The notes beneath the pieces are model-generated. The model did no database searches, was not told where the DNA came from, and saw nothing but the letters and a program-made list of their open reading frames with translations. A DNA stretch of 64,000 bases. Source: Nitrososphaerota archaeon (GTDB taxonomy: Archaea; Thermoproteota; Nitrososphaeria; Nitrososphaerales; Nitrosopumilaceae). The stretch is from the NCBI GenBank assembly GCA_016201435.1, contig JACQCT010000007.1:1-64000 (forward strand), written 5' to 3'. A program made the translations under genes and the position numbers. Positions 19,332-45,968 of the stretch are shown one piece after another (position 1 is the stretch's first letter; each line of letters begins with the position of its first letter).

Positions 19332-19737
19332 TAGTTTTGATTTTTGATTTGAATTTAGCGGGTATTCCTGCCCATATTTCGTTATCAGGAATACTTTTAG
19401 TTACAAATGAGTACGCCGCGACAAGAGAGTTTTCACCTATAGTAATATTTGGCATGATGGTACTATGAGTTCCTATTTTACAATTCTTCTTTAAAACAAC
19501 TCGACCTTTCTTGTTGTCTATAGTTGAATGTGAGTAGATTGAGCAGTGAGAACCTATCTGAACATAATCTGCAATCTCTACACCATATTTACAGTTTAGG
19601 TACGTAAAAGTTCCAATGTCAAAATTTTTTCCCAATTTTAGATTTTCAGGATATTGAACAATGTAATTGTATTTTGTAAGTTTACTATGTTTAATGGTAG
19701 GCTTTTTCCAATTATTTTTTTTCTTCATAATACTCAA
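19324..19737 (-). CDS. hexapeptide-repeat acyltransferase (NeuD/PglD-like)
   Basis: Left-handed beta-helix repeats: VQIGSHCSIYSHS...NCKIGTHSTIMPNITIGENSLVAAYSFVTKSIPDNEIWAGIPAK. Confidence 0.82.
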   Translation of the reverse strand: MSIMKKKNNWKKPTIKHSKLTKYNYIVQYPENLKLGKNFDIGTFTYLNCKYGVEIADYVQIGSHCSIYSHSTIDNKKGRVVLKKNCKIGTHSTIMPNITIGENSLVAAYSFVTKSIPDNEIWAGIPAKFKSKIKTID

Positions 19738-20882: not shown

Positions 20883-20927
20883 TTAATCATCTATGGAAGT
20901 GATATTTTATAATTCTGTGTATTTTGA

Positions 20928-21671: not shown

Positions 21672-21702
21672 ACCATGTCATCTAGACCGTGGTTTATTTT
21701 TT
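21669..21702 (+). terminator. candidate hairpin plus T-tract terminator after the neuB-like gene
   Basis: TAAACCATG (21669-21677) pairs with CGTGGTTTA (21688-21696), 9 bp with one G-T pair, followed by TTTTTT. Confidence 0.45.
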
Positions 21703-21785
21703 ATTATATCTTAAATGTTAATTTAGTCATATCAAAAATGCGTAATTCTGTAATGTATGCTACTGGAATTAATTAATTTGTAATG

Positions 21786-23444: not shown

Positions 23445-23505
23445 TTGATCTTGTTTTTCTTTTTAGAATATTTAAAGGAATCTTAAATTTATTCGATAAT
23501 CAAGC

Positions 23506-24609
23506 TTATTTTCTATAGCTTTGTAGAAAATTTTTGAATGTCATACATTTTATCCTCTCACCAAAAATGCAACCACCTTCAGTAGCATTGATAGTCGATA
23601 CCCAAGATGGAGAGCGAGAAATGAATTCTTTGAATGCGTTGCTATAATAAAGGAAAATTGGATCTAAAATACAATTGCATTTGAATTCAGGATTGTAAAT
23701 CTTGGGAAACAATTTTTTGAAGGTTGGATTATTTTTATCTATTTCAGTTTTTACTTTACTATGTGAAGTGATTAATTCCCAAGGATCATCCTCATCCCAA
23801 CTATGATTTATCCCAATTAGCCCAACCGTAGAGCGTTTTAAAATTTGCCACGAGATAAACCAAGATGCAGTTCCTACGTTGCCTCCTGTTTGTATAGCTG
23901 GAAGCCCATGTAGATGATTCTTTGATCTTACCATTAATGCAGATATTTGATTAAATGATTTTTTGCCTTCGTTATAGTCGAATAATGCGTGTAGCCAATG
24001 TATTTTAATCCCATTTTTTCGTGCACGTTCAACAGTTAACGGATGTACTACTGTAGAAAAAACTCCATTTATTTTATTACCGTATTTTTCAACAATTTTA
24101 TCATCATAATATTTTTGTATAATTTCATCTGCATCAATAGTAACAACATAATACTCTGGAAACTTTTCAGGCGTAACTCCTGCCTTAAGAGTATCTATCA
24201 AGGCACCATCACAACATACTATAGTTCCTTTATAATCACTATCTGCTAATTGTTCTAAATGTTTATACTTTTTAATGGAAGGACCTCGCCCTATAACTAT
24301 AGCAGAATGATCTTGGATATTGTAAAGCGGATCTCTAATAGGAACTAATTCTTTAGCAGATGAATCCTTCCACACATTATTCAAATTTAGACTAAAATTC
24401 TTTACCCAATTTTCATAGAATTTATCATAATATACTTTCTCCATAATGTTTTCCAATGCGAATCCATTATCTTTTTTAATAGAAAAGTAGTCAAGCATGT
24501 GAATAAACCAGTCATCCCATCCTTTCTTGCCAAAACCCATTTCTGACTTTAGTACTAGCATTCTTTCAAGTGTGGTTTCTCTGATAGAGAATTCAAAATC
24601 ATTTGACAT
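23506..24609 (-). CDS. DUF115 / MptE-like family protein (Maf-type glycosylation-associated fold)
   Basis: SAIVIGRGPSIKKYKHLEQLADSDYKGTIVCCDGALIDTLKAGVTPEKFPEYYVVTID; TGGNVGTASWFIS. Confidence 0.8.
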   Translation of the reverse strand: MSNDFEFSIRETTLERMLVLKSEMGFGKKGWDDWFIHMLDYFSIKKDNGFALENIMEKVYYDKFYENWVKNFSLNLNNVWKDSSAKELVPIRDPLYNIQDHSAIVIGRGPSIKKYKHLEQLADSDYKGTIVCCDGALIDTLKAGVTPEKFPEYYVVTIDADEIIQKYYDDKIVEKYGNKINGVFSTVVHPLTVERARKNGIKIHWLHALFDYNEGKKSFNQISALMVRSKNHLHGLPAIQTGGNVGTASWFISWQILKRSTVGLIGINHSWDEDDPWELITSHSKVKTEIDKNNPTFKKLFPKIYNPEFKCNCILDPIFLYYSNAFKEFISRSPSWVSTINATEGGCIFGERIKCMTFKNFLQSYRK

Positions 24610-24654
24610 TTATTTACATCATTATTATTCATTGATACCTTTACATTTTAATTA

Positions 24655-24873
24655 TTATAGCTCTTCTAAACCAAGCTCGTCTTCTTTTTTATCAGATCTA
24701 AATACCATGAAGGATCCTGATGCACCAGATTTTATGATAAATTCTTCAAATTCAGATTGCGTAATATCTTTACTTGATTCTATATTGATTTTAGTATTTG
24801 TTTCTTTTGAATCAAATTTAGACGTTTTTGATATCTTAAAATTTGCCTTAATCAATATAAAACCTTGTACCAT
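24655..24873 (-). CDS. small hypothetical protein, 72 aa or longer; reading frame stays open upstream to 24948
   Basis: Charged, coherent ORF; upstream in-frame ...KIICSLCSTGIGLIIKSNFKYD-M... lacks a canonical start. Confidence 0.45.
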   Translation of the reverse strand: MVQGFILIKANFKISKTSKFDSKETNTKINIESSKDITQSEFEEFIIKSGASGSFMVFRSDKKEDELGLEEL

Positions 24874-24952
24874 ATCGTATTTAAAATTTGACTTAATGAT
24901 TAAGCCAATTCCTGTGGAACATAAAGAACAAATTATTTTAGATATAGTTCAA

Positions 24953-25117
24953 TTATACATTCAGTATTTTTTTATATTTTTTTAAAAGGCAATTTTTACA
25001 CAGACAGTCACGGTTGTCAATTTCATTTATACTAAGTTTTGGAATGTTCATACACCAACAAGTAGCTGAATTATCACATTCAAAAACCATATTGCACATT
25101 GAACAATTTTTCTTCAA
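24953..25117 (-). CDS. small Cys-rich CWC-type protein, 54 aa (absent from supplied ORF track)
   Basis: TTG start; LKKNCSMCNMVFECDNSATCWCMNIPKLSINEIDNRDCLCKNCLLKKYKKILNV. Confidence 0.7.
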   Translation of the reverse strand: MKKNCSMCNMVFECDNSATCWCMNIPKLSINEIDNRDCLCKNCLLKKYKKILNV

Positions 25118-25230
25118 TAATTTATGTTAATCAACAACTACCCTAAATTAATTTCTATCATGAGTATATTCTATAAGTTTTAAAAATAAAAATGTGAAGA
25201 AATGTATTTATCAGAATTCCTGATACAAAC

Positions 25231-26370
25231 TCATTCTTGTTCTAAGAATTCTTTTACTGATTCACAAATATAATCAAGTTCTTCTTTTTTCAATCCCGGA
25301 TACATTGGTAGGGTAAGAGTTCTTTGTGAGATAGATTCTGTAACTGGCAACTTTGAATTTTTAGCATACCCAATATTTTTGTAAAAGGTTGTCAAGTGAA
25401 CAGGATCAAAAAATACTTTAGACATTATTCCTTTTGTAGAAAGAAAAGTCATTAGCTTGTTTCTAAAATCTGAATTTGGTAAGAGTATGGAATACATCTG
25501 ATACACGTGTCTACAACCTTGCATTTCAAGTGGTACTTTTACATTCTTTAGTTTACTTAAGCGTGAATTAAGATATCTTGCGTTCTTGCGACGTAAATTA
25601 ATGAGTTTTTCAATCTTTTCTAATTGTGATATAGCCAGAGCTGCAGTAATACTTGACATTCTCCAATTATACCCAATAGTCACATAATCTGGTTTGGTGA
25701 TTGATGAGAAGTAGTTTTGTTTATCCACACGTCCATGAGATCTTAGCAATTTTAATTTATCAAATAGCGATTTGGAATTAGTTGCTACTGCTCCTCCCTC
25801 GCCAGTTGTTACAATTTTGTTTCCAGCGAAGCTAAAGATAGACATCTCACCAAAAGTACCTGTCATTTTTTTTCCTATTCGCGCTCCTAATGATTCAGCG
25901 GCATCTTCGATTAGCCATATTTTATTTTGTTTTGATACTTCAGCTATTTCTTTTATTTTGCATGGCAAACCTGCATAATGAACAGGTAGTATACAACGAG
26001 TTTTCCTATCAACATTAGAACTAACAAGATGTGGGTCTAAACCACAAGTCTCTTCCTCAATATCAACGAATTTTGGAGTAGCGCCTACCATCAAAGCGCA
26101 ATTTGCGGTTGCTATAAAAGTGAATGACGGTAAAAGAATTTTATCACCATTTCTAATTTCTGCTGCCAGTAAAGAGGCATGTAGTGCAGAAGTACCAGAA
26201 TTGAATGCAAGACAATAATCTACCCCCACATAGTTTGCTAGTAATTTCTCAAATAATTCTATTTCAGGGCCAATTGCCCAATCCATTCCTCTTGTAATTA
26301 CCTTTGAAATGGCTCTAATATCATCTTTATCAACAAAAACTTTGTAGAGAGGTATTTTCCATTTCGTCAT
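25231..26370 (-). CDS. DegT/DnrJ/EryC1/StrS sugar aminotransferase (PseC/LegC-like)
   Basis: ILPVHYAGLPC, LIEDAAESLGA, SFAGNKIVTTGEGGAV (PLP Lys). Confidence 0.9.
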   Translation of the reverse strand: MTKWKIPLYKVFVDKDDIRAISKVITRGMDWAIGPEIELFEKLLANYVGVDYCLAFNSGTSALHASLLAAEIRNGDKILLPSFTFIATANCALMVGATPKFVDIEEETCGLDPHLVSSNVDRKTRCILPVHYAGLPCKIKEIAEVSKQNKIWLIEDAAESLGARIGKKMTGTFGEMSIFSFAGNKIVTTGEGGAVATNSKSLFDKLKLLRSHGRVDKQNYFSSITKPDYVTIGYNWRMSSITAALAISQLEKIEKLINLRRKNARYLNSRLSKLKNVKVPLEMQGCRHVYQMYSILLPNSDFRNKLMTFLSTKGIMSKVFFDPVHLTTFYKNIGYAKNSKLPVTESISQRTLTLPMYPGLKKEELDYICESVKEFLEQE

Positions 26371-26472
26371 TTCTTAATTATGAAAATTGATTTTACAATA
26401 TTAACCCTTAGAAATTAAAGAAGCACTGAATGGGTAAAAAAAGTTAATTATTATTAGAAAGCTATCAGAGAA

Positions 26473-27243
26473 ATGAATTGTACCGTTTTTCTAATTGTGA
26501 GAACATCTTCAACCCGTCTTCCAAAAAAAGCATTGCTAGAGATAAATCATCAACCATTAATCAAGATCTTAATTGACAGAATAAAGACAGCTAAAAAAGC
26601 TAGAGAGATTATTGTATGTACTACCACTCATAAATCAGATGATAAATTAGTAAAATTTCTTACGAATAACAATATCAAGGTATTCAGAGGAGATAGAAAA
26701 GATATTCTAAATAGACTCTACTTAGCTGCAAAAAAATACAAAGTCAAGCAATTTGTAGTAGTAGAAGGTGATGATGTTTTTTGTGAACCGATTCTGATTG
26801 ATGAAACATGTAAAAAATTATCTCAAACAAAGTACGATTTTTTGTATTGGAAGAATTTGCCATTTGGAGTTTCTCCACTCGGTATAAAAACGTCCAAATT
26901 GGAAATTCTAGTAAAAAGCAAAGCAACAAAAAATACGGAAACAGGTTGGGGAAGATTCATAGTAGAAAGTGAAGTTTTCAAGGTTGGACAAATTAGACCT
27001 CGTTTTAAGAAATGGATTCGGCCAGACATTAGACTTTCAGTTGATTATCCAGAAGACTTTCAGTTAGTGAAAATACTTTATCGAAAGCTACCACGGAAAT
27101 TTACGCTCACGGACTTGATCAAATTACTAGATAAAAATCCAGAATTGCAAAAGATTAACGAATCTGTTAAGTACAAATATGAACAAAATTTTACAAGGAA
27201 AATGACTAAAATTGCATTCAAAAGAAAGGTAAGAAGTAAATGA
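26473..27243 (+). CDS. cytidylyltransferase domain protein (SpsF/acylneuraminate cytidylyltransferase-like)
   Basis: VFLIVRTSSTRLPKKALLEINHQPLI; GDRKDILNRLYLAAK; RLSVDYPEDF. Confidence 0.83.
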   Translation: MNCTVFLIVRTSSTRLPKKALLEINHQPLIKILIDRIKTAKKAREIIVCTTTHKSDDKLVKFLTNNNIKVFRGDRKDILNRLYLAAKKYKVKQFVVVEGDDVFCEPILIDETCKKLSQTKYDFLYWKNLPFGVSPLGIKTSKLEILVKSKATKNTETGWGRFIVESEVFKVGQIRPRFKKWIRPDIRLSVDYPEDFQLVKILYRKLPRKFTLTDLIKLLDKNPELQKINESVKYKYEQNFTRKMTKIAFKRKVRSK

Positions 27244-28241
27244 AATTTCTGATTGTTGGTTTGGGCTCAATGGGAAAAAGGAGAATAAGAAATCTTAAAC
27301 AATTAGAACAAAATGACATTATTGGATTTGATACGAGGGAGGATAGATGTAACGAAGCACACGAAAAATATCAGATTCATACATTTACCGATATTGCAGA
27401 AGCAATAAAAGATAACCCTGATGCAATGGTAATTTCTACTCCTCCAGATCTGCATATGAGATATGCCAAGATTGCAATTGAAAACAACATTCACTTCTTT
27501 ACTGAAGCTAGTGTAATACAAGATGAAATGGAAGAAGTAATTCAACTTCTTGTAAAATCAAACATAATAGGGCTTCCATCATGTACTATGAGATATCATC
27601 CTATAGTGATTCAAGTTAACAGAATTTTAAAAACCAATAATATTGGAAAACCGCTTGCGATACTATATCATTCAGGACAATACCTTCCAGATTGGCATCC
27701 CTGGGAAGACTACAGAAAATTCTACGTATCAAAAAGGAAAACAGGAGCATGTAGAGAGATAGTTCCATTTGAGCTGACGTGGCTTGTTTCTACTTTTGGT
27801 AAAATTAATAGTGTAACAGCGAACAAATCTAAGGTTTCTAAATTAGAAGCAGATATTGATGATATCTACAATGTTTTATTGGAATTTAAAAATGGAGTTC
27901 AAGGAAATTTGACTGTAGATGTTATTGCAAGGTTTCCATATAGACAATTAAAAATACTTGGCGAAAATGGCGTAATCTTTGCAGACTGGTCAGAAAAAAT
28001 TGTGAGGTATTTTACCAAGGAAACAGGATGGGTCGATAAAAAAATTGATGATGGCATAATAGAAAAAAACTACATACATGGAGAAGGAATGTATATACAT
28101 GAAATGGAAACCTTCCTCAAATCAATCAAGAAAGAAATTCCACAACCTTACACATTTGAAGAGGATCTTAAAATTTTGAAGATATTAGAATATATGGAAA
28201 AGAGCAGTGATGATGGAACTAGACAAATTATTAACAATTAA
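27240..28241 (+). CDS. Gfo/Idh/MocA family oxidoreductase
   Basis: FLIVGLGSMGKRRIRNL; DAMVISTPPDLHMRYAKIAIENNIHFFTEASV; ATGA overlap with previous gene. Confidence 0.87.
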   Translation: MKFLIVGLGSMGKRRIRNLKQLEQNDIIGFDTREDRCNEAHEKYQIHTFTDIAEAIKDNPDAMVISTPPDLHMRYAKIAIENNIHFFTEASVIQDEMEEVIQLLVKSNIIGLPSCTMRYHPIVIQVNRILKTNNIGKPLAILYHSGQYLPDWHPWEDYRKFYVSKRKTGACREIVPFELTWLVSTFGKINSVTANKSKVSKLEADIDDIYNVLLEFKNGVQGNLTVDVIARFPYRQLKILGENGVIFADWSEKIVRYFTKETGWVDKKIDDGIIEKNYIHGEGMYIHEMETFLKSIKKEIPQPYTFEEDLKILKILEYMEKSSDDGTRQIINN

Positions 28242-28256
28242 CTAGTAACACTAGTT
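28240..28256 (+). repeat. short perfect inverted repeat at the stop codon of the oxidoreductase gene
   Basis: AACTAGT-AAC-ACTAGTT. Confidence 0.5.
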
Positions 28257-28312
28257 TATGTTTTAGAAATAGTTTTATCTACTTAGAGCACTTGATGAAT
28301 GACAAATAGCAC

Positions 28313-29332
28313 ATGATTGCATTAGAAAAAAGCGTGAAAAACGAATTCAAGGACAAAACCATTCTGGTAACTGGTGGTACTGGTTCTATTGGAGTTGGTC
28401 TAATTGAGGAATTAATTAAATGTAAACCACGTTCCATTAGAATTTTTTCAAATGATGAAAATTCCATTTTTGAAACAAAAAGAATTGTGAGTAACGATCC
28501 TATATTCACTTTTATGGTGGGGGATGTACGAGACAGAGATAGATTAAATCTTGCCATAAGAAATGTAGACATTGTATTTCATGCGGCAGCTATGAAGCAT
28601 GTAGACATCTGTGAACAAAACCCCTTTGATGCAGTAAAAACAAATGTAGTTGGAACAAGCAATATTCTAGAAGCCTCGCTTTTGGAAGATGTTTCCAAGT
28701 TTATTTTCATAAGTACGGATAAAGCAACCAATCCAACAAGTACTCTTGGAGCTAGCAAGATGTTAGCAGAAAGACTTACAATTAAAGCTAGTTCCTACAG
28801 AGGGAAAGGAAAAACCATATTTGCCATTGTACGTTTTGGCAATGTAATAGGTTCTAGAGGTTCTGTATTTCAGATATTTCTTGATCAAATTAGGAAGGGA
28901 ATTCCTCTTACTGTAACTGACAAAAAAATGACTCGTTACATAATGTCAATACACGAAGCTGCATCTCTTATTTTAAAAGTAACTCATATTGCTAAAGATG
29001 GAGAGGTATTCATATTGAAAATGCCTTCTGTTAGAATAGAAGATCTTGCAAAAGGCATGATTAGTGTTTATGGCAAAAGATTTCCAATTGAAAAGAAAAA
29101 TCTTCCACCTATTAAAATTTCTACTGCAAGGGAAGGAGAAAGATTTAACGAATTTTTAATCACTCCGGATGAAATTCCATACTGTCATGACGTTGAGAGC
29201 ATGTATAAAATCTCAAAGGAGGCCATTAAGAAAAAAATTCCAATGACACAATTTAGTTCGGAAACTGCAACAAGAATTTCACAAGAAAAACTCTATCAAA
29301 TTATTAATGAACTGCTCGACGAATTTTCATGA
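28313..29332 (+). CDS. UDP-GlcNAc 4,6-dehydratase (PseB/LegB/CapD-like SDR)
   Basis: KTILVTGGTGSIGVGLIEEL; VFHAAAMKHVDICEQNPFDAVKTNVVGT; ISTDKATNPTSTLGASKMLAERL. Confidence 0.9.
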   Translation: MIALEKSVKNEFKDKTILVTGGTGSIGVGLIEELIKCKPRSIRIFSNDENSIFETKRIVSNDPIFTFMVGDVRDRDRLNLAIRNVDIVFHAAAMKHVDICEQNPFDAVKTNVVGTSNILEASLLEDVSKFIFISTDKATNPTSTLGASKMLAERLTIKASSYRGKGKTIFAIVRFGNVIGSRGSVFQIFLDQIRKGIPLTVTDKKMTRYIMSIHEAASLILKVTHIAKDGEVFILKMPSVRIEDLAKGMISVYGKRFPIEKKNLPPIKISTAREGERFNEFLITPDEIPYCHDVESMYKISKEAIKKKIPMTQFSSETATRISQEKLYQIINELLDEFS

Positions 29333-30870: not shown

Positions 30871-32742
30871 ATGTCACAAACATTAATTGTCATAGAAGGT
30901 GATAATGATGTACAGACACTTAAAAGCGAATTATCGAATAAAGAAGTTAAAATAATAACTTTTGATTTTCTCTCACATAAATCCCTAAAAAACATGGGAA
31001 TTTCACATGCTCTAGTGGAAGATTATTTTAGTGCAGAAGATCAAGAAATAATGGACGGAAAAGCAGTAGAGTTAACCACCACATGGTATAAAGATAACGA
31101 GATAAGTAAATTTCTGCAATACGATAGTTTCAACATAGGAAAGCTTCTTGAAACAGAATTTATATATTATTTTTTTCAACATATCAAAAGAGTATTCGGA
31201 ATACTAAGAGTAATTGAGAAAGAACATCCTAGTAAAATAATATGCTCTTTTTTAGGCGGGTCGGTAGAAACAATGTGTAAAGATCCAAGCGTCAAGATCA
31301 TAAAATATCAAACCAAAGAATCTCTTTCATTATATTATGATAGAATAGAAATTCCAATAAATATTAGAGGTAGAATATTTGCTGTAAAAATCTCTCGAAA
31401 AAATTTTTTTGCTCTCAAAAAAATATTGGAGAAAATTATAGACATATTCTTTAATGTGAAAGCTAAACCTAGTGAACTAAAGAATAAAAAGTCTATTTTA
31501 TTATTAGAATTTAATCCTATTTCATATCATGATTTACTAATATCTCTTTCAAATGCAGAACAGAGCATGATATTGTTAAATCAACGTAGACCGGCAACAT
31601 GGAATTTCAAAAGTCTTAATATTCTTAAAAAATCAAACTGCAAAGTTATACAATTAGAAGATTTTTCAGATTCAAATATACTTAAAAAAATTTCAACCAC
31701 ACAGAATGAATTAAAAATAAGTATGAATTTTCTTTTCTTAAAGAACAATCTCTTCGAAAGGATCTTCTCTATCAACGGACAGCCTTTTTGGGAATCAATT
31801 AAAGAGAGCTTTACACAGATTATCATAGATAGATTTACAGAAGCTGTGAAACGATTCATCTTAGTTGAAACTTTATTTGAAAATGTAGATGTTAGTTGCA
31901 TTCTTGAATGGGCACATGTACCATTAGAAGAACAAACAACTATTCTGGCAGCAAATAAAAGAAAAATACCTAGTATTTTTCTGCAGCATGGATTGAATCT
32001 ACTAAATAGCAAATTTGAAAAATACATAACAATATTCCCCATCTTACCTTCAAATGATTCAAAAGAAGCAGTGTGGGGAAATATAATGCAAAAATTTATT
32101 CTAGGACACGGTATTTCACATGATAAAATAACAATAACCGGAAGTCCTAGACATGATCCCTTTTTTACTCATAAAAAGTCAAAAGATAACAAAAATAATG
32201 TATTGATTGCATCAAATTTGTTATCTGCTATTAACTATAGTGGTAATGATACCCATGCATATGAGTTATTTGATACATATCTAAGAAAAATATGTGAAAT
32301 CATAAAAAAGGATCCAAGTAAGAAAATAATAGTCAAATTACATCCTGCACGACCATATTACGATATAACACCAATTATTCATGAAATAGATCCAACCATA
32401 CCAATATACCGAGATGAAGATATCCGTATTTTAATAGAGGATTGTGATGTTGTGATCTCAATGAATTATTCGACTATCATACTGGATGCGATGATTTTGA
32501 AAAAGCCAACCATGGTGATTTTACCAGAAGATCAGAATTATGAGAAAGAAATTCCAATTATTCGTAAAGCTACCTTACCCATCTCTAAAACAGAGGAATT
32601 AGAATCATCACTTAATGATCTTTTGTACAATGAAACTGTCCGTAGAGATTTAATAAGTAAAGGTAATGAATTTGTCAACGATTACATGTCAAATCAAGGA
32701 ACATCTTCAGAACATCTTGCAAACATATTGAAGAAGTATTAA
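30871..32742 (+). CDS. large GT-B-like surface polysaccharide protein, 623 aa; candidate glycosyltransferase
   Basis: C-terminal half: IPSIFLQHGLN, ITITGSPRHDPFF, KIIVKLHPARPYYD, CDVVISMNYSTIILDAMILKKPTMVI. Confidence 0.65.
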   Translation: MSQTLIVIEGDNDVQTLKSELSNKEVKIITFDFLSHKSLKNMGISHALVEDYFSAEDQEIMDGKAVELTTTWYKDNEISKFLQYDSFNIGKLLETEFIYYFFQHIKRVFGILRVIEKEHPSKIICSFLGGSVETMCKDPSVKIIKYQTKESLSLYYDRIEIPINIRGRIFAVKISRKNFFALKKILEKIIDIFFNVKAKPSELKNKKSILLLEFNPISYHDLLISLSNAEQSMILLNQRRPATWNFKSLNILKKSNCKVIQLEDFSDSNILKKISTTQNELKISMNFLFLKNNLFERIFSINGQPFWESIKESFTQIIIDRFTEAVKRFILVETLFENVDVSCILEWAHVPLEEQTTILAANKRKIPSIFLQHGLNLLNSKFEKYITIFPILPSNDSKEAVWGNIMQKFILGHGISHDKITITGSPRHDPFFTHKKSKDNKNNVLIASNLLSAINYSGNDTHAYELFDTYLRKICEIIKKDPSKKIIVKLHPARPYYDITPIIHEIDPTIPIYRDEDIRILIEDCDVVISMNYSTIILDAMILKKPTMVILPEDQNYEKEIPIIRKATLPISKTEELESSLNDLLYNETVRRDLISKGNEFVNDYMSNQGTSSEHLANILKKY

Positions 32743-32774: not shown

Positions 32775-33242
32775 TCAGAACACTGAGCATTTTTTCTTCC
32801 ACTTTTCCCAATCATAGTCATCAAAAGAAACATTAATCATCTCATTATCATTTGGCCTCCAAGCAATACTTGCAAGGGCTAAAACAGATGAGATTTGATT
32901 CGACAAGTTAATGTGTGCTGATGGATAGTTTTTTGGTATTTGAACCAGTACTGGATCTTCCTCACTTGATTCTATTTCATGAAATTTTCCTTCTAGATCT
33001 TTTACAACAAAAACTACCTTTCCCTTTATACAAACAAAATAGCTATCCCTTTTGGTATGCAGATGAGGGCCTTTTATTTCGCTGGGATTCACAGAGGAAA
33101 CATATACCATTTTTGGTTCATTAGCAAGTATTTTGTCCCAATCTCTCCATATTACAGTTAATGAACCGTTAATGTGATGATCTTTCACATCTTTTGTCTG
33201 GTGCATTTCTAATTTTATGGCCCTGATCTCATTGTTTCCCAT
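32775..33242 (-). CDS. cupin-fold dTDP-4-dehydrorhamnose 3,5-epimerase-like protein
   Basis: SEIKGPHLHTKRDSYFVCIKGKVVFVVKD; VLVQIPKNYPSAHINLS. Confidence 0.75.
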   Translation of the reverse strand: MGNNEIRAIKLEMHQTKDVKDHHINGSLTVIWRDWDKILANEPKMVYVSSVNPSEIKGPHLHTKRDSYFVCIKGKVVFVVKDLEGKFHEIESSEEDPVLVQIPKNYPSAHINLSNQISSVLALASIAWRPNDNEMINVSFDDYDWEKWKKKCSVF

Positions 33243-33387: not shown

Positions 33388-34377
33388 ATGAGACTTTTAG
33401 TGACTGGAGGATTAGGATTCATTGGGAGTAATTTCATTTTACATGTTAATGAAAAACATCCAGATTTTAGAATAACAAATATTGATGCAGAGCTACCAGG
33501 TTCCAACAAAAAAAATCTTTCAAGCTTGCAAGACAGTAATCATTACAAGTATGTAAAAGGAAACATCACTAACAAAAAATTAGTTGATAAGCTTGTTTCT
33601 GGATCCGATGTAGTCATTAATTTTGCTGCCGAATCTCATGTTGATAGGAGTATAGCAGATCCTAGACCGTTTGTGGATTCCAACATTGTTGGTGTGTATA
33701 CAGTTTTAGAAGCAGTTAGAAAATACAAGAAGAAATTCATCCAAATATCTACAGACGAGGTCTTTGGTAGTCTAAAGAAAGGCAGTGCTAGTGAAAAATA
33801 TCTATTGAATCCCTCCAGTCCATATGCCGCTTCAAAGGCTTCTGCAGAATTGTTAGTACAATCTTACATAATCACTTATGGTTGCAATGCCATCACTACT
33901 AGGTGCACCAATAATTATGGTCCCAGACAATCTCCTGAAAAACTAATTCCAAAGACCATAATTCTTGCTCAAAAGAATAAGCAAATACCAATTTACGGAA
34001 CAGGAAAAAACATAAGAGATTGGATATATGTTTTGGACCATTGTGATGCCATTTTAAAGATACTTTTCCATGGCAAAAGCGGCGCGTCATATAACATATC
34101 AGCAGCAAATGAAATTGATAATCTGACAATTGTTAGAAAAATCCTAAAGATTATGGGAAAACCTTTGGACCTAATTCACTTTACAAAAGATAGGCCCGGA
34201 CATGATTTCCGGTATAGTTTGAATTCTAGAAAAATAAGAGGGGAACTATGTTGGAAGCCCAAATATAATTTTGAAAAGGGTCTTGAACGTACAATAAATT
34301 GGTACATTGAAAACAAGAAGTGGTGGGCAGACACACCTTCTTCCATTTTGAGTGCGTATAATTGGAAAACTAGATAA
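33388..34377 (+). CDS. rfbB: dTDP-glucose 4,6-dehydratase
   Basis: RLLVTGGLGFIGSNFI; INFAAESHVDRSIADPRPFVDSNIVG; QISTDEVFGSL; SPYAASKASAELLV. Confidence 0.92.
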   Translation: MRLLVTGGLGFIGSNFILHVNEKHPDFRITNIDAELPGSNKKNLSSLQDSNHYKYVKGNITNKKLVDKLVSGSDVVINFAAESHVDRSIADPRPFVDSNIVGVYTVLEAVRKYKKKFIQISTDEVFGSLKKGSASEKYLLNPSSPYAASKASAELLVQSYIITYGCNAITTRCTNNYGPRQSPEKLIPKTIILAQKNKQIPIYGTGKNIRDWIYVLDHCDAILKILFHGKSGASYNISAANEIDNLTIVRKILKIMGKPLDLIHFTKDRPGHDFRYSLNSRKIRGELCWKPKYNFEKGLERTINWYIENKKWWADTPSSILSAYNWKTR

Positions 34378-34397: not shown

Positions 34398-35474
34398 GTG
34401 AGTTTATTGAAGGGAATAATTCTTCATGGAGGACATGGTACAAGGTTAAGACCTCTGACACATACAGGACCAAAACAACTTTTACCTATAGCAAACAAGC
34501 CCATGTCACAGTATTGTATAGAATCATTAAAGGAAGCAGGAATTACAGACATCGCTATAATTATTGGTGGACTAGGAGCTAACAAAGTTCAAGAATACTA
34601 CGATAATGGAGAAAAATTTGGTGTAAAATTAACTTACATTGTTCAAGATAATCCAAAAGGAATAGCTCATGCAGTACGTCTTTGCAAAGATTTTGTCGGA
34701 GATGAAAAATTTGTAGTTTTTTTGGGAGACAATATTTTAAAAAGAAATATCTCAGACTATGTAAAGGATTTTCAACAATCAGATTCTGAAGCTATAATAC
34801 TTTTGTGTGAAGTAGACAATCCTACCCAGTTTGGCATAGCTGATGTAAAAGACGGAGTCATCAAAAAGATCATGGAAAAACCAAAGAGCCCCCCAACTAA
34901 TCTAGCTGTAACAGGGATCTATTTTTTGACGCCAGTAATTTTTGACATAATTGATAGATTAAAGCCATCCTTGAGGGGAGAATTGGAGATAACTGATTCT
35001 CTGCAAATGTTCCTTGACGAGGGACATAAAATCACCTATCATACCGTGACTGATTATTGGAAGGACACGGGTACACCTCATGATATCATTCATGCCAATG
35101 AGGTCATCTTGAAGGATATGAAACCGTATTTTTATGGTAAAAAGGAAGATGGTGCGATTATTGAAGGTAATGTAATGGTAGGGGAAAATACTACCATCAA
35201 GTCAGGTGCAAAAGTAGTTGGTCCTGTAATCATAGGAAAGAATTGTATGATTAGTCCAGACTCATATGTTGGACCAAATACCAGTGTAGGTGATGATTCT
35301 AATCTGGCAAAGTGCAACATTGAAGATTCAATCATAATGACGGGTTGCACAATTGACTGTGACATTAAGATAAGAAAGAGCATTATTTCATCAAATTCTG
35401 AAATCATTTACAAGAAAGAAAATGGCGATAAGAAGATATTTCTTCTTGGTGAAGGCTCTAAAATTTCACTTTAA
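34398..35474 (+). CDS. rfbA: glucose-1-phosphate thymidylyltransferase (long archaeal form)
   Basis: GIILHGGHGTRLRPLTHTGPKQLLPIANKPMSQY; C-terminal LbH; GTG start. Confidence 0.92.
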   Translation: MSLLKGIILHGGHGTRLRPLTHTGPKQLLPIANKPMSQYCIESLKEAGITDIAIIIGGLGANKVQEYYDNGEKFGVKLTYIVQDNPKGIAHAVRLCKDFVGDEKFVVFLGDNILKRNISDYVKDFQQSDSEAIILLCEVDNPTQFGIADVKDGVIKKIMEKPKSPPTNLAVTGIYFLTPVIFDIIDRLKPSLRGELEITDSLQMFLDEGHKITYHTVTDYWKDTGTPHDIIHANEVILKDMKPYFYGKKEDGAIIEGNVMVGENTTIKSGAKVVGPVIIGKNCMISPDSYVGPNTSVGDDSNLAKCNIEDSIIMTGCTIDCDIKIRKSIISSNSEIIYKKENGDKKIFLLGEGSKISL

Positions 35475-35533: not shown

Positions 35534-36586
35534 TTGTCCTCTGAAAATAAGAATCCACTCATTAGCATCATCATACTAAATTACAATGCAGGCAAATTGT
35601 TGCTAAATTGTGTAGAATCAGTATTCAAATGCAAATATGAAAACTTGGAGGTAATTGTAGTAGATAATGCTTCATCCGATAAAAGTCACATCACATGCAA
35701 AGAGAAATTTAACAAAATACATCTAATCAGTAATGAAACAAATCTAGGATATTGTGAAGGAAATAATGTAGGAATTAGAAATTCAAAGGGAGTATTTATC
35801 GTAATTCTAAATCCAGATACAGAAGTAGATCCAAGTTGCCTCAACGAATTATTGAACGCATATGTAAAGAATGGAGAGGGGCTTTATCAGCCAAAGATAC
35901 TTTCACTTTATGAAAAAGACATACTTCAGAGCACTGGGAATGTGCTTCACCTATTTGGATTTGGATTTGCAAGAGATAAGGGATTAAAAGACAGTAATCA
36001 AAGAAATCAAATCGAACAAATTGGATATGCATCTGGTACATGTTTATTCACTTCCGCTTCTGTTCTAAATAGAGTAGGCCTGCTTGATCCATTTCTATTT
36101 CTGTATCATGATGATCTTGATCTTGGTTGGAGAGCTGCCCAATTAGGAATCAAATCATATTTTGTACCATCCTCAGTAATATATCACGCAGAGAGCTACA
36201 CGCTAAAATGGGGTGCAAAAAAGTTCTTTTGGTTAGAAAGAAACAGACGCTATTGTCTTCTTACTCATTACTCAAAGGAAACGTATCGCAAGATGTTGCC
36301 TTCTCTAATAGTTGTTGATATTCTTGTTTGGTTTTTCTATTTCTATAAAGGATTTTTAGGTTCAAAAATAAGAGCAGAGTTAGACATACTTCAAAACAAA
36401 GATCACATATCAAAAAAATACAACGAGATAGAGAGTAAGAAACTTGTCTCTGATGTAGAACTAGTAAAATTATTTCCTGATGAAATTTATGTTCCTGCCA
36501 ATGTTTCAAGTGTGACTACAAATAATTTTTTTAATAAGATACTTGCTACGCTTAGCAAAAAAGCAAAGCGTTCTATCTTATCTTAG
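35534..36586 (+). CDS. glycosyltransferase family 2 (rhamnosyltransferase-like)
   Basis: ISIIILNYNAGKLLLNCVESVFKC; VVDNASSDKS; NPDTEVDPSCL; DDLDLGWRAAQLG. Confidence 0.9.
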   Translation: MSSENKNPLISIIILNYNAGKLLLNCVESVFKCKYENLEVIVVDNASSDKSHITCKEKFNKIHLISNETNLGYCEGNNVGIRNSKGVFIVILNPDTEVDPSCLNELLNAYVKNGEGLYQPKILSLYEKDILQSTGNVLHLFGFGFARDKGLKDSNQRNQIEQIGYASGTCLFTSASVLNRVGLLDPFLFLYHDDLDLGWRAAQLGIKSYFVPSSVIYHAESYTLKWGAKKFFWLERNRRYCLLTHYSKETYRKMLPSLIVVDILVWFFYFYKGFLGSKIRAELDILQNKDHISKKYNEIESKKLVSDVELVKLFPDEIYVPANVSSVTTNNFFNKILATLSKKAKRSILS

Positions 36587-36944
36587 TGTTTGCCACTTTT
36601 TCTGCTATCACAACACCTACAGCCAATTTTTTATCATGACTAATCGAAGCAATGAACACATAATTTTTCTTGTTTTCCCCCAACAGGTCTACTTTGGGTT
36701 TTGAGTTTGAGTGAGAGACTAGAATTTTTAATGGAGACATATTCTCATTCATTGATTTTTTTACTGCCTCTTTTATTGCAAATTTTCCTGCGAATCTTTC
36801 ATATGGATTTTTGTATTTCAAACAGTATTTTATTTCAGAAGGCAAGAAGATTTTCTTATAAAATCCCCGCTTAGAATAGTATGGAATCTTCTCAAAGGCA
36901 GTCACGTCAACTATATCAATTCCGATACCAAACTTTTCTATCAT
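36573..36944 (-). CDS. acpS: holo-ACP synthase (AcpS-type 4'-phosphopantetheinyl transferase)
   Basis: FGIGIDIVDVTAFEKI; YERFAGKFAIKEAVKKSM; SISHDKKLAVGVVI. Confidence 0.85.
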   Translation of the reverse strand: MIEKFGIGIDIVDVTAFEKIPYYSKRGFYKKIFLPSEIKYCLKYKNPYERFAGKFAIKEAVKKSMNENMSPLKILVSHSNSKPKVDLLGENKKNYVFIASISHDKKLAVGVVIAEKVANTKIR

Positions 36945-36972
36945 AAAATTTTCCTCTTCAAATCGTAAACTA

Positions 36973-37398
36973 TTATCTTACCATAACCTTAGCAATGCCG
37001 TCCACTAGACACTTTCCCTCCTGATTGTATATTGTAGTTTTAATGGTAAGCATCCTGCTTGCCAGACTTTTTTCAAAGACTTCTCCTTCTACAGTAACTT
37101 CATCATTTATGAAACAAGGCAATTTAAAATTCAATGTCTGTGAAAAGTATAAGGCATTTTTCCCAGGTAGATGCATTCCTACCATTTTAGAAAAAAAGGA
37201 ACCTAAAAGCATGCCATGACATACCCTCTTTCCAAACTTTGTCGATTTGGCATATTGCTCATCTACGTGTAATGGGTTATAGTCACCGGAGATCTTTGCA
37301 AACTTATTTACTAATGATTCAGTTATTTTAACGGAAAACTTTCTTTTTTGACCTACTTCTATCTCTTCTAATTTATGATCCTCACACATTTCAGTCAT
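36973..37398 (-). CDS. MaoC-like (R)-specific enoyl hydratase
   Basis: ISGDYNPLHVDEQYAKSTKFGKRVCHGMLLGSFFSKMVG hydratase-2 motif. Confidence 0.9.
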   Translation of the reverse strand: MTEMCEDHKLEEIEVGQKRKFSVKITESLVNKFAKISGDYNPLHVDEQYAKSTKFGKRVCHGMLLGSFFSKMVGMHLPGKNALYFSQTLNFKLPCFINDEVTVEGEVFEKSLASRMLTIKTTIYNQEGKCLVDGIAKVMVR

Positions 37399-37630
37399 TT
37401 AGTGTTACTCCATGATTCTGTAGGTGCCTCTTGATATCAGAGATGGTCTTTACATCAATTGCTTCTTCCATTGTAAATTTTACATTAAATTCATGTTCCA
37501 ACTCATACAATAACACATAACCATTAAACGATGTCCAGCTCTCAATAGACTCAGGACCTGAATTATCGCTTATTTGAGATACAGGCACATTCATTACTCT
37601 TCCAATAAGATCGTAGAGTCTCTTTGACAT
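37391..37630 (-). CDS. acyl carrier protein
   Basis: 79 aa; four-helix ACP-like GPESIESWTSFNGYVLLYELEHEFNVKFTMEEAIDVKTISDIKRHL; candidate phosphopantetheine Ser in W-T-S-F. Confidence 0.82.
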   Translation of the reverse strand: MSKRLYDLIGRVMNVPVSQISDNSGPESIESWTSFNGYVLLYELEHEFNVKFTMEEAIDVKTISDIKRHLQNHGVTLND

Positions 37631-39399
37631 TATTCTACACTAACTCTTAGGTAATCTGGTGCTTTGAATGTAGAATTTACAGAATAAATCCAATGATCGC
37701 CTTCTTTGTGAAAACCACAGTCTGACAGAAAACTTTCCACTGGTTTATTTTTCTTAGTTGGAATATATTGCGCTTTTATGTATTCAACTTTATTTTTTCT
37801 AGCTTGTTCTATGATATGAGATAATATACCCTTTTCTACTTCTCTTCCCATTACCCTGCAGCTTAAAAGAAAGGTATCGATTGTCCACTCTTTTTGGTTT
37901 TCTTTTTTTACAATAAACACGCCTGTTATGCCATTGTCACCAAACTTGTCTTCAACTTGGACACATCCTACCAACATGTTACTATCTTGTGAAAATTGTC
38001 GAATCTCTTCCTCTTGATATCTCCTAGTTGTAAGATTGAACTGGTTTGTTTTTAGTGTAAGCTGAGATATCCTTGAAATAGTAAACTGATCTGCTTTTTT
38101 TATTTTGAGTTTTATCTCAAGTTGTTTTAAAAAGTCTTCAATATTAGTAGTGTTCTTTTCAAAATTTTTTCTTTGTTTTTCTTGATGATACATGTCCTTA
38201 CGTTTCAAATCCTCTTCTGTAATCTTGAGAACATTAAAGTCGTTAATCCCATGTAGAACAGATGCATAGAAGGCAGGATCTGATGGCAGATCTACTGTTA
38301 GTACTTCGGGTAAATTCATAGTCATGAATTCTCTGTTTACCGGATCATCATCAAAATAGGCAATGCTATCAAGTCCTATATTCAGTTCCTCTGCAATCTC
38401 TTTCATGTTTGATACCTTATCATTCCAGTTTATCCTAATGTTCGCAAAATTTTCCTCTCTAAGTACCATATGAGGGTGTTTTCTTATCACTTCAAGAGCA
38501 TCGTCCTCATTGTTCTTGCTATTTATGGCTAAAATGATACCTCTCTGATTGAGCGCCAACAAAGAGCGTTGTAATTCCATGTAAGCATTACCTGGAGGAG
38601 TAGGACCCAATTTTATTCCGTTAAATCCATCTTCGCCAACTATACCTCCCCATAGAGTATTATCAAGATCAAGTGCAATACATTTTTTGTTTAGCCCCAT
38701 CATCGTTTTTACATATCCCATCAAGTCTTCTGCAAGAAGAGGGATGAACTCTAAACTAATTTTAATATCGCCAAAAAAATATTGGCGATAATCAAATACG
38801 TTTGATTCTCCGTATCTAGTAACAAACCCATTGAAATCATATATGTAAACAGTTTGATTCTGTCTTGTATAATCATATAATTTTGAATTAAGTTTCATTA
38901 CCATTTCTTGCAGACCTAATTCAGATTTTGTTTCACAAATTCCATATGGTGAATAAGTTGGAACACTCAAGTTTGTTACAACCAATTTTGATTTGGATTT
39001 TTTTGTAAAGACTTCGAATAGGTTTACTAGTTCTTTAGCTTTCTTTTCAACCAGTTCTTTTCTTTGATCAACAGACAATGAATAAGGTGAGTAAAAGAAA
39101 TTTCCAAGAATGCTTCTTGTATCTAATATCAAGAATACAGCATCTGGAGAAAATTTGTATAGCTCACTCTTATCATTTAAAATGTCTTGGTTGTATTGAT
39201 TATATCCAGAGACAAAAACTGAGGCATCTATTTTTTTCTCAGCACATTTTACTCGCAGTGTCTCTTCAAGACCATTTAATGTGAAGCTTCCAAGTATCCC
39301 TATACGTATTTTTTTCTCAAAGTTGCTAGTATCCAGATTACTTGCCGCATTAATATAATGAGATAATTTTTGCTCCATAGATGTCACGATATACTTCAT
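37630..39399 (-). CDS. FkbH-like HAD-IIIC phosphatase family protein, 589 aa
   Basis: KKCIALDLDNTLWGGIVGEDGFNGIKLG; LAINSKNNEDDALEVIRKHPHMVLREENFANIRINWNDK; C-terminal GNAT-like domain. Confidence 0.93.
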   Translation of the reverse strand: MKYIVTSMEQKLSHYINAASNLDTSNFEKKIRIGILGSFTLNGLEETLRVKCAEKKIDASVFVSGYNQYNQDILNDKSELYKFSPDAVFLILDTRSILGNFFYSPYSLSVDQRKELVEKKAKELVNLFEVFTKKSKSKLVVTNLSVPTYSPYGICETKSELGLQEMVMKLNSKLYDYTRQNQTVYIYDFNGFVTRYGESNVFDYRQYFFGDIKISLEFIPLLAEDLMGYVKTMMGLNKKCIALDLDNTLWGGIVGEDGFNGIKLGPTPPGNAYMELQRSLLALNQRGIILAINSKNNEDDALEVIRKHPHMVLREENFANIRINWNDKVSNMKEIAEELNIGLDSIAYFDDDPVNREFMTMNLPEVLTVDLPSDPAFYASVLHGINDFNVLKITEEDLKRKDMYHQEKQRKNFEKNTTNIEDFLKQLEIKLKIKKADQFTISRISQLTLKTNQFNLTTRRYQEEEIRQFSQDSNMLVGCVQVEDKFGDNGITGVFIVKKENQKEWTIDTFLLSCRVMGREVEKGILSHIIEQARKNKVEYIKAQYIPTKKNKPVESFLSDCGFHKEGDHWIYSVNSTFKAPDYLRVSVE

Positions 39400-39428
39400 T
39401 TTGGCAATAAATTTCTATTAGTTCATTC

Positions 39429-40025
39429 TTGTCAGTATTTTTTCTTAGAAAGGTTTTAGATAAAGACTTCATTCTTCTTCTTAGGCATATGACAGAGATA
39501 CAAGAGGATGCTTCCGCCTTAAACGAAAAGGAGATAATGGAATTTTATGGTTACAAGGGTTCAGCAGGTCGTTTCTCCCTAAAGATGAAGTTCCTAAGGA
39601 CTTGGATCTTGCATTCTCTTGCATATTCTTGTCCAAATTCAGGATTTGTAGTCAAAATACAAAGATCAAGGGGAGTAACCATTGGTAAGAATTGTCATAT
39701 CTCACCTTATGTTCTAATTGATCTAGTATACCCAAGTTTAATCAAGATAGGCGATAATGTTACAATTGGTTCAAACAGCTTAATCTTTGCTCATGCTAAT
39801 CCTACTGCCAATTTATTTTTAAAAAAAGGAAGTTACCCCCGCAAGGTGGAACAAGTCACCATAAAATCAGGCGCTGTCCTATTTCCTGGTTCAATCATAA
39901 CTGCAGGAGTTACTATTGGTGAGAATTCAATGGTAGGTGCAGGTAGTGTTGTTTTTGAAAGTGTTCCAGACTATTGCATTGTGATGGGCAATCCAGCTCG
40001 TATTATCAAGAAAATCGAACGTTGA
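39429..40025 (+). CDS. hexapeptide-repeat acyltransferase (WbbJ/LbH type)
   Basis: VTIGKNCHISPYVLIDLVYPSLIKIGDNVTIGSNSLIFAH...GAVLFPGSIITAGVTIGENSMVGAGSVVFESVPDYCIVMGNPARIIKK. Confidence 0.87.
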   Translation: MSVFFLRKVLDKDFILLLRHMTEIQEDASALNEKEIMEFYGYKGSAGRFSLKMKFLRTWILHSLAYSCPNSGFVVKIQRSRGVTIGKNCHISPYVLIDLVYPSLIKIGDNVTIGSNSLIFAHANPTANLFLKKGSYPRKVEQVTIKSGAVLFPGSIITAGVTIGENSMVGAGSVVFESVPDYCIVMGNPARIIKKIER

Positions 40026-40091: not shown

Positions 40092-40928
40092 TTGAATCTA
40101 CTAGGAATTGATTTTGAAGATTGGTATCATCCAGAATTAATTCAACGTCACCTCAAAACTCAAAACAATAAACCAACCGTTGTAAATGGCATAGACAAGA
40201 TTCTAGATTGGTTACGAAAGAATGAGACTTTTGCAACTTTTTTTGTGGTTGGTGAGTTATTGGAACTCAAACCAGAATTACTTGACAAGATACTTGCTGG
40301 TGGCCACGAGATAGGGTTTCATAGCATGTATCACACAAGACTTGACTCTCCAAACTATAGAGAAAAATTTACTGAAGAGATAAAACGATTCGATGCTTTG
40401 ACATCTAAAAAATCAAGAGGTTTTAGGGCACCTACTTTCTCATTAAATCACAATAGTGCATGGGCAATTGATGTTCTGTCTGAGAATAATTATGTATACG
40501 ATAGTAGTGTTGTACCTGCAAAAACAAAGTTGTATGGAATTTCTGATGCCCAAACTAGACCATACAGGATAACAAGTAAGAACCTAGAACGAGATGATCC
40601 ATCTGGAAAGATAATGGAATTTCCTCTTCTTGTAACAAAAATACTTGGTAGAAAGGTTCCTGCCTGTGGGGGATTCTATCTTAGAGCATTACCATTAAAA
40701 ATTATCGAAAATGCCATTAGACACAACAATGAACAAAACATTCCTGCCAGCTTCTATATTCATTCATGGGAACTTACTCCAGAATTTATGCCCAAAGTAC
40801 CATTGTCATTTATTGAGAATTTTGTCACATATTACAACCTTGGAAATACTCTAAAAAAATTGGATAGACTAATCAAGAAATTCAAGTTTACATCTTTTAG
40901 CAGATTTTTGTCGGAAGCAAAGTTCTAA
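40092..40928 (+). CDS. polysaccharide deacetylase family protein
   Basis: LLGIDFEDWYHPEL; ATFFVVGELLE; GGHEIGFHSMYHTRLDS; GFRAPTFSLN. Confidence 0.9.
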   Translation: MNLLGIDFEDWYHPELIQRHLKTQNNKPTVVNGIDKILDWLRKNETFATFFVVGELLELKPELLDKILAGGHEIGFHSMYHTRLDSPNYREKFTEEIKRFDALTSKKSRGFRAPTFSLNHNSAWAIDVLSENNYVYDSSVVPAKTKLYGISDAQTRPYRITSKNLERDDPSGKIMEFPLLVTKILGRKVPACGGFYLRALPLKIIENAIRHNNEQNIPASFYIHSWELTPEFMPKVPLSFIENFVTYYNLGNTLKKLDRLIKKFKFTSFSRFLSEAKF

Positions 40929-45182: not shown

Positions 45183-45968
45183 TTGATTTTGATTATTCTA
45201 GCATTAAGTACATCAATGATTTTAGTAGGCATGAGTCAAGAAGCATCTGCTTTATCATCTTTAGTGGGAAATTGGTTATTCAATGAAGCAACGGGAACGA
45301 TTGCACATGACACTAGTGGTAATCACCATGATGGTACTATAAATGGAGCAACACATCTTCCTGCTATTGATTGTAGAGTCTTTCGTTGTCTTGGTTTTGA
45401 TGGCGTGGATGATTCTGTAAGTGTGGGTTCTCTTGGTATTAGTAGCGATACGCAGCCATTTTCAATAGCTGCATGGGTAAAACCAGATGTAAAAACAGCT
45501 ACCAACAATACTTCTGCATTTATTATTGTTGCAAATGGTGGAACTAAATGCTGTCTTAATACTGGAGATTTCTTTGCTAACCTTCGTATTGGAGAGGGGT
45601 CAACATTTGGTAATGTTGTAGCAGAAATTGGTAGTACTCAAACCTACAGTGCAGAAAAAATAACTGCAAACGGAAAATTAACTGCCGGCCATTGGAGTCA
45701 TGTTGTCCTCACGTATGATGGTAGCAGAACATTTGGTGGGATCAAAATCTACATTGACGGTGTCCTACAGCCCACAAAGAATCTTGGACCTGGATTTTCA
45801 GGTACTCCAAATCCACGTGATGATTGGATTATTGGTGCAGAAAGATATGGATCAGACAATAATGACTTCTTTGGAGGTTCAATTGATACCGTGAAGATCT
45901 ATTCTTGCGCTCTTAACAAAATAGAAGTAAAGCAAGTCTTTTATGGATTCAATATCGTACAGTGCTAA
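45183..45968 (+). CDS. secreted LamG/concanavalin A-like domain protein, 261 aa
   Basis: Signal peptide; LVGNWLFNEATGTIAHDTSGNHHDGTINGA...FDGVDDSVSVGS...SIAAWVKPD...GHWSHVVLTYDG...IKIYIDGVLQ; TTG start. Confidence 0.87.
   Translation: MILIILALSTSMILVGMSQEASALSSLVGNWLFNEATGTIAHDTSGNHHDGTINGATHLPAIDCRVFRCLGFDGVDDSVSVGSLGISSDTQPFSIAAWVKPDVKTATNNTSAFIIVANGGTKCCLNTGDFFANLRIGEGSTFGNVVAEIGSTQTYSAEKITANGKLTAGHWSHVVLTYDGSRTFGGIKIYIDGVLQPTKNLGPGFSGTPNPRDDWIIGAERYGSDNNDFFGGSIDTVKIYSCALNKIEVKQVFYGFNIVQC

Follow-up and report, generated by a model that had tools for sequence, protein, structure and literature searches.

To our knowledge archaea for the most part lack acyl carrier proteins (ACPs), and a gene for such a protein lying close to one for a phosphopantetheinyl transferase (PPTase) in an archaeal genome raises the question of which acyl group the carrier bears and where that group is delivered. 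We address this question for a gene cassette of an ammonia-oxidizing Nitrososphaerota archaeon from the family Nitrosopumilaceae (GenBank assembly GCA_016201435.1, contig JACQCT010000007.1); the window referred to throughout is the whole stretch analysed, namely positions 1 to 64,000 (64,000 nucleotides) of this contig. The cassette consists of four minus-strand genes and a divergent gene for a left-handed beta-helix acyltransferase (LbH_AT):

36573-36944, minus strand: acpS (AcpS), 123 aa, AcpS-type phosphopantetheinyl transferase (PF01648 and TIGR00556)
36973-37398, minus strand: maoC (MaoC), 141 aa, MaoC-type (R)-hydratase/dehydratase (PF01575)
37391-37630, minus strand: acp (ACP), 79 aa, acyl carrier protein (PF00550)
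37630-39399, minus strand: fkbH (FkbH), 589 aa (TIGR01686 and FkbH_N, PF21211)
39489-40025, plus strand: LbH_AT, 178 aa from a conserved ATG, left-handed beta-helix acyltransferase (Hexapep, PF00132)

This cassette is real, conserved and coherent. We favor the view that it acts as a self-standing unit supplying ACP-bound acyl groups for the synthesis of surface glycans, which would proceed via glyceryl-ACP and end with transfer of the acyl group by LbH_AT.

Gene calls and conserved catalytic features

An earlier sequence-only reading of the window had described FkbH, ACP, MaoC and AcpS as closely packed minus-strand genes, and we confirm this for the region 36573-39399, with catalytic motifs intact: fkbH and acp overlap by 1 bp, acp and maoC by 8 bp, and 28 bp separate maoC from acpS. 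The same reading had placed the acyltransferase 30 bp from fkbH, a distance that we correct to 89 bp. The initial open reading frame (ORF) call for LbH_AT covered 39429-40025 on the plus strand, and because its homologues start just a few to about 15 residues ahead of a conserved NExExMxYYGYxG motif, the start was moved to the ATG at 39489. The revised gap agrees with the 90-122 bp found in most relatives, as measured from their predicted starts.

FkbH is recovered by TIGR01686 with 329.7 bits (cut-off 146.65) and by FkbH_N with 68.4 bits, and comprises an FkbH_N domain, a HAD-IIIC phosphatase domain and a GNAT-like C-terminal domain. The previously suggested HAD plus GNAT-like architecture is borne out by structure matches, with FkbH_N as an additional domain in front: the AlphaFold model (mean pLDDT 83) matched the N-terminal part of Bacteroides BF1531 (3slr; TMt 0.91), along with the HAD phosphatase MDP-1 and GNAT folds. 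The HAD residues D244, D246, S294, K328 and D350, as well as Cys514 in an SCR motif of the C-terminal domain, are identical in 99 of 99 archaeal and bacterial homologues, and the partner ACP is adjacent in nearly every intact locus. A homologue of this protein, Tmn16, transfers glyceryl from D-1,3-bisphosphoglycerate (1,3-BPG) onto discrete ACPs in vitro (PMC3625739).

The match of the carrier protein to PF00550 is weak, though above threshold (23.4 bits against a cut-off of 20.8), and a profile built from its relatives matches ACP structures, including bacterial ones (best 2lml, 54.4 bits). Its phosphopantetheine serine is Ser34 within the motif W-T-S-F, and W32, S34 and E45 are invariant in an alignment of 18 sequences. 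AcpS matches PF01648 (41.9 bits, cut-off 25) and TIGR00556 (50.4 bits), and keeps G8, D10, K58, E59 and K63 in 47 of 47 homologues, with Asp10 and Glu59 (in KEA) being the Mg/CoA motif residues; its score falls below the equivalog cut-off of TIGR00516 (49.7 against 59.8 bits), leaving AcpS orthology uncertified. MaoC is a hotdog-family protein (PF01575, 79 bits, cut-off 27) whose catalytic Asp...His dyad lies in GDYNPLH and is kept in both archaeal and bacterial cassette MaoCs. LbH_AT matches Hexapep with 55.1 bits and has a His102 that is invariant among homologues. Its model (pLDDT 93) is a left-handed beta helix with galactoside and maltose O-acetyltransferases as the nearest folds, AntD and NeuO also being matched; a profile for prenylglyceryl-phosphate acetyltransferases (NF058585) gave just a weak match (63 bits, cut-off 300).

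An ACP without a fatty-acid or polyketide system

The genome that includes the window is a 1.84-Mb metagenome-assembled genome (MAG) with a contamination estimate of 8.9%. Contamination as the source of the cassette was ruled out, since the same cassette occurs in the single-contig genomes G003, G025, G046, G048, G083 and G124. Genome-wide, a single PP-binding domain over the cut-off, a single ACPS domain and a single MaoC were detected, all in the cassette, and the suggestion that the ACP is self-contained and has its own PPTase was hence correct. The malonyl transacylase FabD (PF00698) has no match in the genome, and the ketosynthase-family (PF00109) matches reach just 17-22 bits, being fragments in frames of 371-391 aa that are probably thiolases. 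The pairing of FabD with a ketosynthase that defines a type II fatty-acid synthase is thus lacking, and with FabD and any clear ketosynthase missing there is no fatty-acid or polyketide machinery for which the ACP could work; synthesis of either kind was rejected as its role. The genome also yielded no cassette-type FabG elsewhere, just distant short-chain dehydrogenases/reductases (SDRs; 25-28% identity). Among the conserved cassette neighbors there are no partners of methoxymalonyl-ACP operons (FkbG methyltransferase, FkbI/FkbK-type dehydrogenases), and at the locus itself there is neither a FabH-like gene, as expected of tetronate operons alongside acyltransferase/dehydratase genes of the Agg4/Agg5 type, nor a DltA-type ligase or DltB MBOAT, as expected of dlt operons, although a ligase and/or an MBOAT occurs in some relatives. 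Of the short hydroxyacyl groups proposed earlier for the ACP, a C3 unit from 1,3-BPG is the most likely, while the absence of FabD and of a clear ketosynthase makes a 3-hydroxy-fatty-acyl group unlikely.

Exchange of the loader and co-occurrence in Nitrososphaeria

We surveyed 400 Nitrososphaeria genomes for the cassette components. FkbH is present in 41, of which 39 also hold ACP; the ACP profile matched in 53 (~13%), a few of them weakly. ACPS was detected in 48, a lower bound given that the search missed G000 and G034, both of which have AcpS. The LbH_AT subfamily likewise occurs in 41 genomes and shares 38 of them with ACP, the remainder being G217 and G303, which are cut by contig ends, and G070, which gave a weak hit with internal stops. 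Uncorrected for shared ancestry, these co-occurrences have Fisher p values of ~8e-40 (FkbH/ACP) and ~3e-37 (LbH_AT/ACP).

Six sister genomes have, in place of FkbH, an AMP-forming ligase beside ACP and AcpS, and four of these keep LbH_AT. These four loci (L105, L106, L107 and L108) show the arrangement AcpS, then ACP - AMP-ligase - LbH_AT, with an LbH_AT 63-67% identical to that of the window; the L105 ligase is a PF00501 protein, and the ACP of L107 (genome G114), though not called as an ORF, was found by profile search. At L114 and L117 additional genes accompany AcpS, ACP and the ligase. Within the family, LbH_AT is 57-70% identical across cassettes of the FkbH type and the ligase type, and the family 2 glycosyltransferase (GT2) neighbor of the window cassette also adjoins cassettes of the ligase type. 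The strongest argument for LbH_AT as the consumer of acyl-ACP is its retention despite the exchange of the loader; together with the co-occurrence across genomes this makes such a role likely, and supports the earlier idea that the acyltransferase uses the ACP-bound acyl group.

Several ligase-bearing loci have additional features. The AMP-ligase cassettes of L105, L106, L107 and L108, which come from relatives in the same family, represent a dlt-like operon in archaea, and the one at L105:8841-13949 also includes DltD-like and DltB-like MBOAT genes. At L114:4733-8789 and L117:8104-12245 the ACP and AMP-ligase are followed by a LuxE-family protein (in L114, PF04443) and a protein of 430-450 aa, a gene set reminiscent of the tetronate genes of Vibrio cholerae O1.

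Conserved gene order and genomic context

The sequence-only reading set the cassette inside an archaeal glycan island, and the dTDP-sugar, glycosyltransferase and deacetylase genes around it bear this out. Apart from the listed genes below, the island includes NeuC, NeuB and a CMP-sugar synthetase.

32775-33242, minus strand: FdtA/WxcM-like dTDP-keto-sugar isomerase (PF05523, 64.7 bits), syntenic in most loci
33388-34377, plus strand: RmlB-like sugar dehydratase, named by eye from sequence, syntenic with RmlA and FdtA
34398-35474, plus strand: RmlA-like glucose-1-phosphate thymidylyltransferase (TIGR01208, 421.9 bits, cut-off 320), syntenic
35534-36586, plus strand: GT2 glycosyltransferase (PF00535, 85.5 bits), convergent with acpS and at the same position in most loci
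40092-40928, plus strand: polysaccharide deacetylase with DUF3473 (PF11959, 110 bits; PF01522), adjoining LbH_AT in most loci

With losses and inserts, most loci follow the order SDR - DUF3473 - LbH_AT, FkbH - ACP - MaoC - AcpS, GT2 - RmlA - RmlB - FdtA. The cassette order was found again in about 30 further loci, indicating that it is not a chance array, and LbH_AT is divergent to FkbH in 30 of 31 eligible loci. Among the named carriers are the cultured Ca. Nitrosotenuis chungbukensis MY2, whose cassette is of the MaoC type, a Nitrosarchaeum MAG and single cells of Ca. Nitrosopelagicus. The distribution is patchy, as four sampled congeners have no FkbH. In two loci (L069 and L070, genomes G074 and G108) fkbH has stops and frame breaks, a decaying state of the cassette that points to recent loss.

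Second ACP loci were found away from the FkbH cassette. At L212:8010-11732 a DltD-like gene, ACP, FabG-like SDR and MBOAT are clustered, and at L213:7874-13421 MaoC, FabG-like SDR, ACP and ligase occur with convergent MBOAT and DltD-like genes. Other thaumarchaeal genomes encode proteins of ~1340-1390 aa with an LbH domain (L118:3494-8370, L115:3829-8527 and L123:3260-8114). They are Pls/PosA-like, of the nonribosomal peptide synthetase type; the start of the L118 protein resembles an adenylation domain, and a neighboring protein of 230-270 aa is probably the PPTase hit.

Tailoring variants and the minimal core

In eight thaumarchaeal loci the place of MaoC is taken by a VOC relative of methylmalonyl-CoA epimerase (TIGR03081, 70 bits, under the cut-off of 115). 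The two proteins share one operon slot, between ACP and AcpS: among 39 thaumarchaeal loci 28 have MaoC, 8 have VOC and none has both, and when other phyla are included the respective numbers for 102 loci are 54, 18 and 0 (p=1.6e-7). The deep-branching loci L044 and L054 have just LbH_AT, FkbH, ACP and AcpS, with no MaoC and outside any glycan island; these four genes are the minimal core of the system. Some archaeal relatives (L053, L063 and L105) also encode a DltB-like MBOAT and a neighbor of it.

Relatives outside thaumarchaea

Among 63 non-thaumarchaeal loci, a FabG-like domain lies within 4.5 kb in 20 of 26 loci with MaoC and in none of 10 with VOC (p=3e-5), and in about a dozen of the 26 MaoC and FabG form one ORF. 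The pSymB locus of Sinorhizobium (S. meliloti; L221) has the order VOC - MBOAT - ACP - HAD/FkbH. AcpS is found beside FkbH mainly in archaeal, DPANN and Candidate Phyla Radiation (CPR) loci. The FkbH tree unites 33 thaumarchaeal sequences, including that of the window, in one clade (SH-aLRT 98), whereas the neighboring clade mixes DPANN, CPR, Omnitrophota and other sequences with L044 and L054, and L068 is placed elsewhere. Judged from this tree, FkbH was present early in this group, and it perhaps entered thaumarchaea three times; the tree is unrooted, leaving the direction unsettled.

Proposed mechanism

We infer the substrate, tailoring chemistry, product and acceptor of the module as follows. 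AcpS would attach phosphopantetheine to Ser34 of the ACP, onto which FkbH would load the glyceryl unit of D-1,3-bisphosphoglycerate to give glyceryl-S-ACP, probably via Cys514, with the HAD domain stripping the 3-phosphate. Because glyceryl-ACP is a 3-hydroxyacyl thioester, i.e. a MaoC-type substrate, dehydration by MaoC is plausible, and most likely converts the 2,3-dihydroxypropionyl thioester to enolpyruvyl/pyruvyl-S-ACP. In genomes having a FabG-like reductase, that enzyme would reduce pyruvyl-S-ACP to lactyl-S-ACP. The dehydrate-then-reduce route fits the MaoC-FabG fusions beside FkbH, and the D-lactyl starter of bryostatin has been explained by a proposal of the same logic. Relatives with VOC probably invert C2, and those with neither MaoC nor VOC would transfer plain glyceryl. 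Finally, LbH_AT would take the acyl group from ACP and attach it, at a hydroxyl or amine, to a sugar (probably dTDP-linked) made by the neighboring genes. A nonulosonic-sugar acceptor, as entertained earlier, is not specifically supported, the conserved neighbors being RmlA, RmlB, FdtA-like and GT2 genes and not NeuB/NeuC.

Several points weigh against this proposal. The nearest solved relatives of LbH_AT use acetyl-CoA, ACP as its donor resting on genetic linkage, and the chemistry ascribed to 1,3-BPG is extrapolated from homologues that act in antibiotic biosynthesis. FabG is in the operon of just 2 of 28 archaeal MaoC-type loci and the genome of the window has distant SDRs only, so a lactyl product is not assured there; pyruvyl, lactyl via an unlinked reductase and epimerised glyceryl are all candidates. 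Nor do the conserved neighbors alone fix the acceptor, and L044 and L054 lie beyond glycan islands.

Alternative explanations

The most serious challenge concerns tailoring. MaoC and VOC might both be C2 epimerases, the former acting by dehydration-rehydration and the latter by direct enolisation, such that L-glyceryl would be the transferred group. Their occupation of the same slot, never together, the resemblance of VOC to methylmalonyl-CoA epimerase and the lack of a reductase in most archaeal MaoC loci are all consistent with this. However, bacterial MaoC is coupled or fused to FabG and VOC is not, which fits dehydration followed by reduction, and the enolpyruvyl intermediate would tautomerise to pyruvyl; we accordingly hold shared epimerase activity to be rather unlikely. 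The acceptor might also be a lipid, a protein or a cytosolic metabolite in place of a surface sugar, as could be argued from the housekeeping genes around the core cassette in L044 and L054 and from the faint likeness of LbH_AT to prenylglyceryl-phosphate acetyltransferase. This is improbable in view of the dTDP-sugar, glycosyltransferase and deacetylase setting seen in nearly all genomes of the window's family and of the DltB-like MBOAT partners in some relatives.

Pathways in which FkbH or ACP are familiar fare worse. By family ACP, AcpS and MaoC resemble type II fatty-acid synthesis components, and as a remnant of or stand-in for that system they might help make short 3-hydroxyacyl groups; but besides the missing FabD there is no FabH or FabF beside the cassette or clearly elsewhere in the genome, FkbH persists without MaoC in L044 and L054, and the occurrence of ACP follows that of its loader, FkbH or the AMP-ligase, and not that of fatty-acid synthesis genes, making such a role very unlikely. 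FkbH with a discrete ACP is a hallmark of polyketide, tetronate and methoxymalonyl pathways (PMC7489565, PMC3625739), and as with FkbH in FK520 or abyssomicin the outcome could be a secreted small molecule. We regard this as extremely unlikely, since the genome has no significant ketosynthase and no malonyl-acyltransferase domain, the conserved neighborhood is devoid of FkbG/I/K-like and FabH-like genes, and the constant linkage is to sugar genes and LbH_AT.

Relationship to known systems

The stand-alone glycan-acylation module that we favor has parts that are known in kind. It shares FkbH (HAD-IIIC) with its catalytic residues and a discrete ACP with the loading systems of antibiotic pathways (Tmn16/Tmn7a, AbyA2/AbyA3, Mad7/Mad8, FkbH/FkbJ), but in the window these stand together with AcpS, MaoC and an acyltransferase of the sugar type in an archaeal host, with no polyketide synthase, FabH-like tetronate synthase, methoxymalonyl oxidases or methyltransferase. 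The dlt system of D-alanylation (DltA-DltC-DltB-DltD) similarly combines a loader, a small ACP and acyl transfer to an envelope polymer; here, in contrast, the loader is FkbH and a cytosolic LbH enzyme is found with no MBOAT. The WxcM-type dTDP-amino-sugar N-acyltransferases AntD, QdtC and FdtD have the LbH fold and a dTDP-sugar context with an FdtA-like ketoisomerase, yet use acyl-CoA, whereas the sequence of LbH_AT is closer to those of maltose/galactoside O-acetyltransferases and its gene accompanies that of an ACP loader. A precedent for a glyceric-acid-derived group on a prokaryotic surface sugar, albeit on a different sugar and in a different host, is the di-O-methyl-glyceric acid on pseudaminic acid of Campylobacter jejuni flagellin (Cj1295; PMC3068675).

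Similar in composition are the bacterial, CPR and DPANN loci (L138-L203 and L221), which have the FkbH-ACP core with the same two tailoring types, MaoC plus FabG or VOC, and in some cases MBOAT. Their nearest FkbHs are 43-50% identical, and AcpS is likewise present in the loci of CPR and DPANN; many differ in having a MaoC-FabG fusion or MBOAT and no adjacent AcpS. The open literature searched yielded no published function for these widespread loci, for which our proposal provides a functional hypothesis. In the same literature we found neither a relevant publication on FkbH or ACP in a glycan context of ammonia-oxidizing archaea (AOA) nor the archaeal combination of a dedicated ACP and AcpS with swappable loaders and tailoring enzymes.

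In intact Nitrososphaeria loci the ACP is accompanied by a PPTase of its own and seems to have a dedicated role. More tentatively, these observations raise the possibility that AOA possess modular ACP-dependent glycan acylation, in which one LbH_AT is served by exchangeable loaders (FkbH using 1,3-BPG, or an AMP-ligase using a free acid) and tailoring enzymes (MaoC, alone or paired with FabG, or VOC), generating glyceryl, pyruvyl or lactyl groups that vary by strain and representing the sole use of ACP in most such cells. Central metabolism would thereby be coupled, through 1,3-BPG, to variation of the cell surface. The proposal also makes a chemical prediction that can be tested on the surfaces of archaea ranking among the most abundant in ocean and soil.

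Other genes in the window

The region 19734-29332 of the window encodes the nonulosonic-acid proteins NeuC, NeuB, a CTP transferase and a PseC/LegC-like aminotransferase; this NeuB is just 247 aa long, with no further domain matched. A 623-aa ORF at 30871-32742 has no Pfam match, and distant relatives of it (26-34% identity) recur in the vicinity of FdtA in numerous glycan islands of thaumarchaea. Also within the glycan island, at 45183-45968, is a gene for a putative secreted Laminin_G_3 (concanavalin-like) protein.

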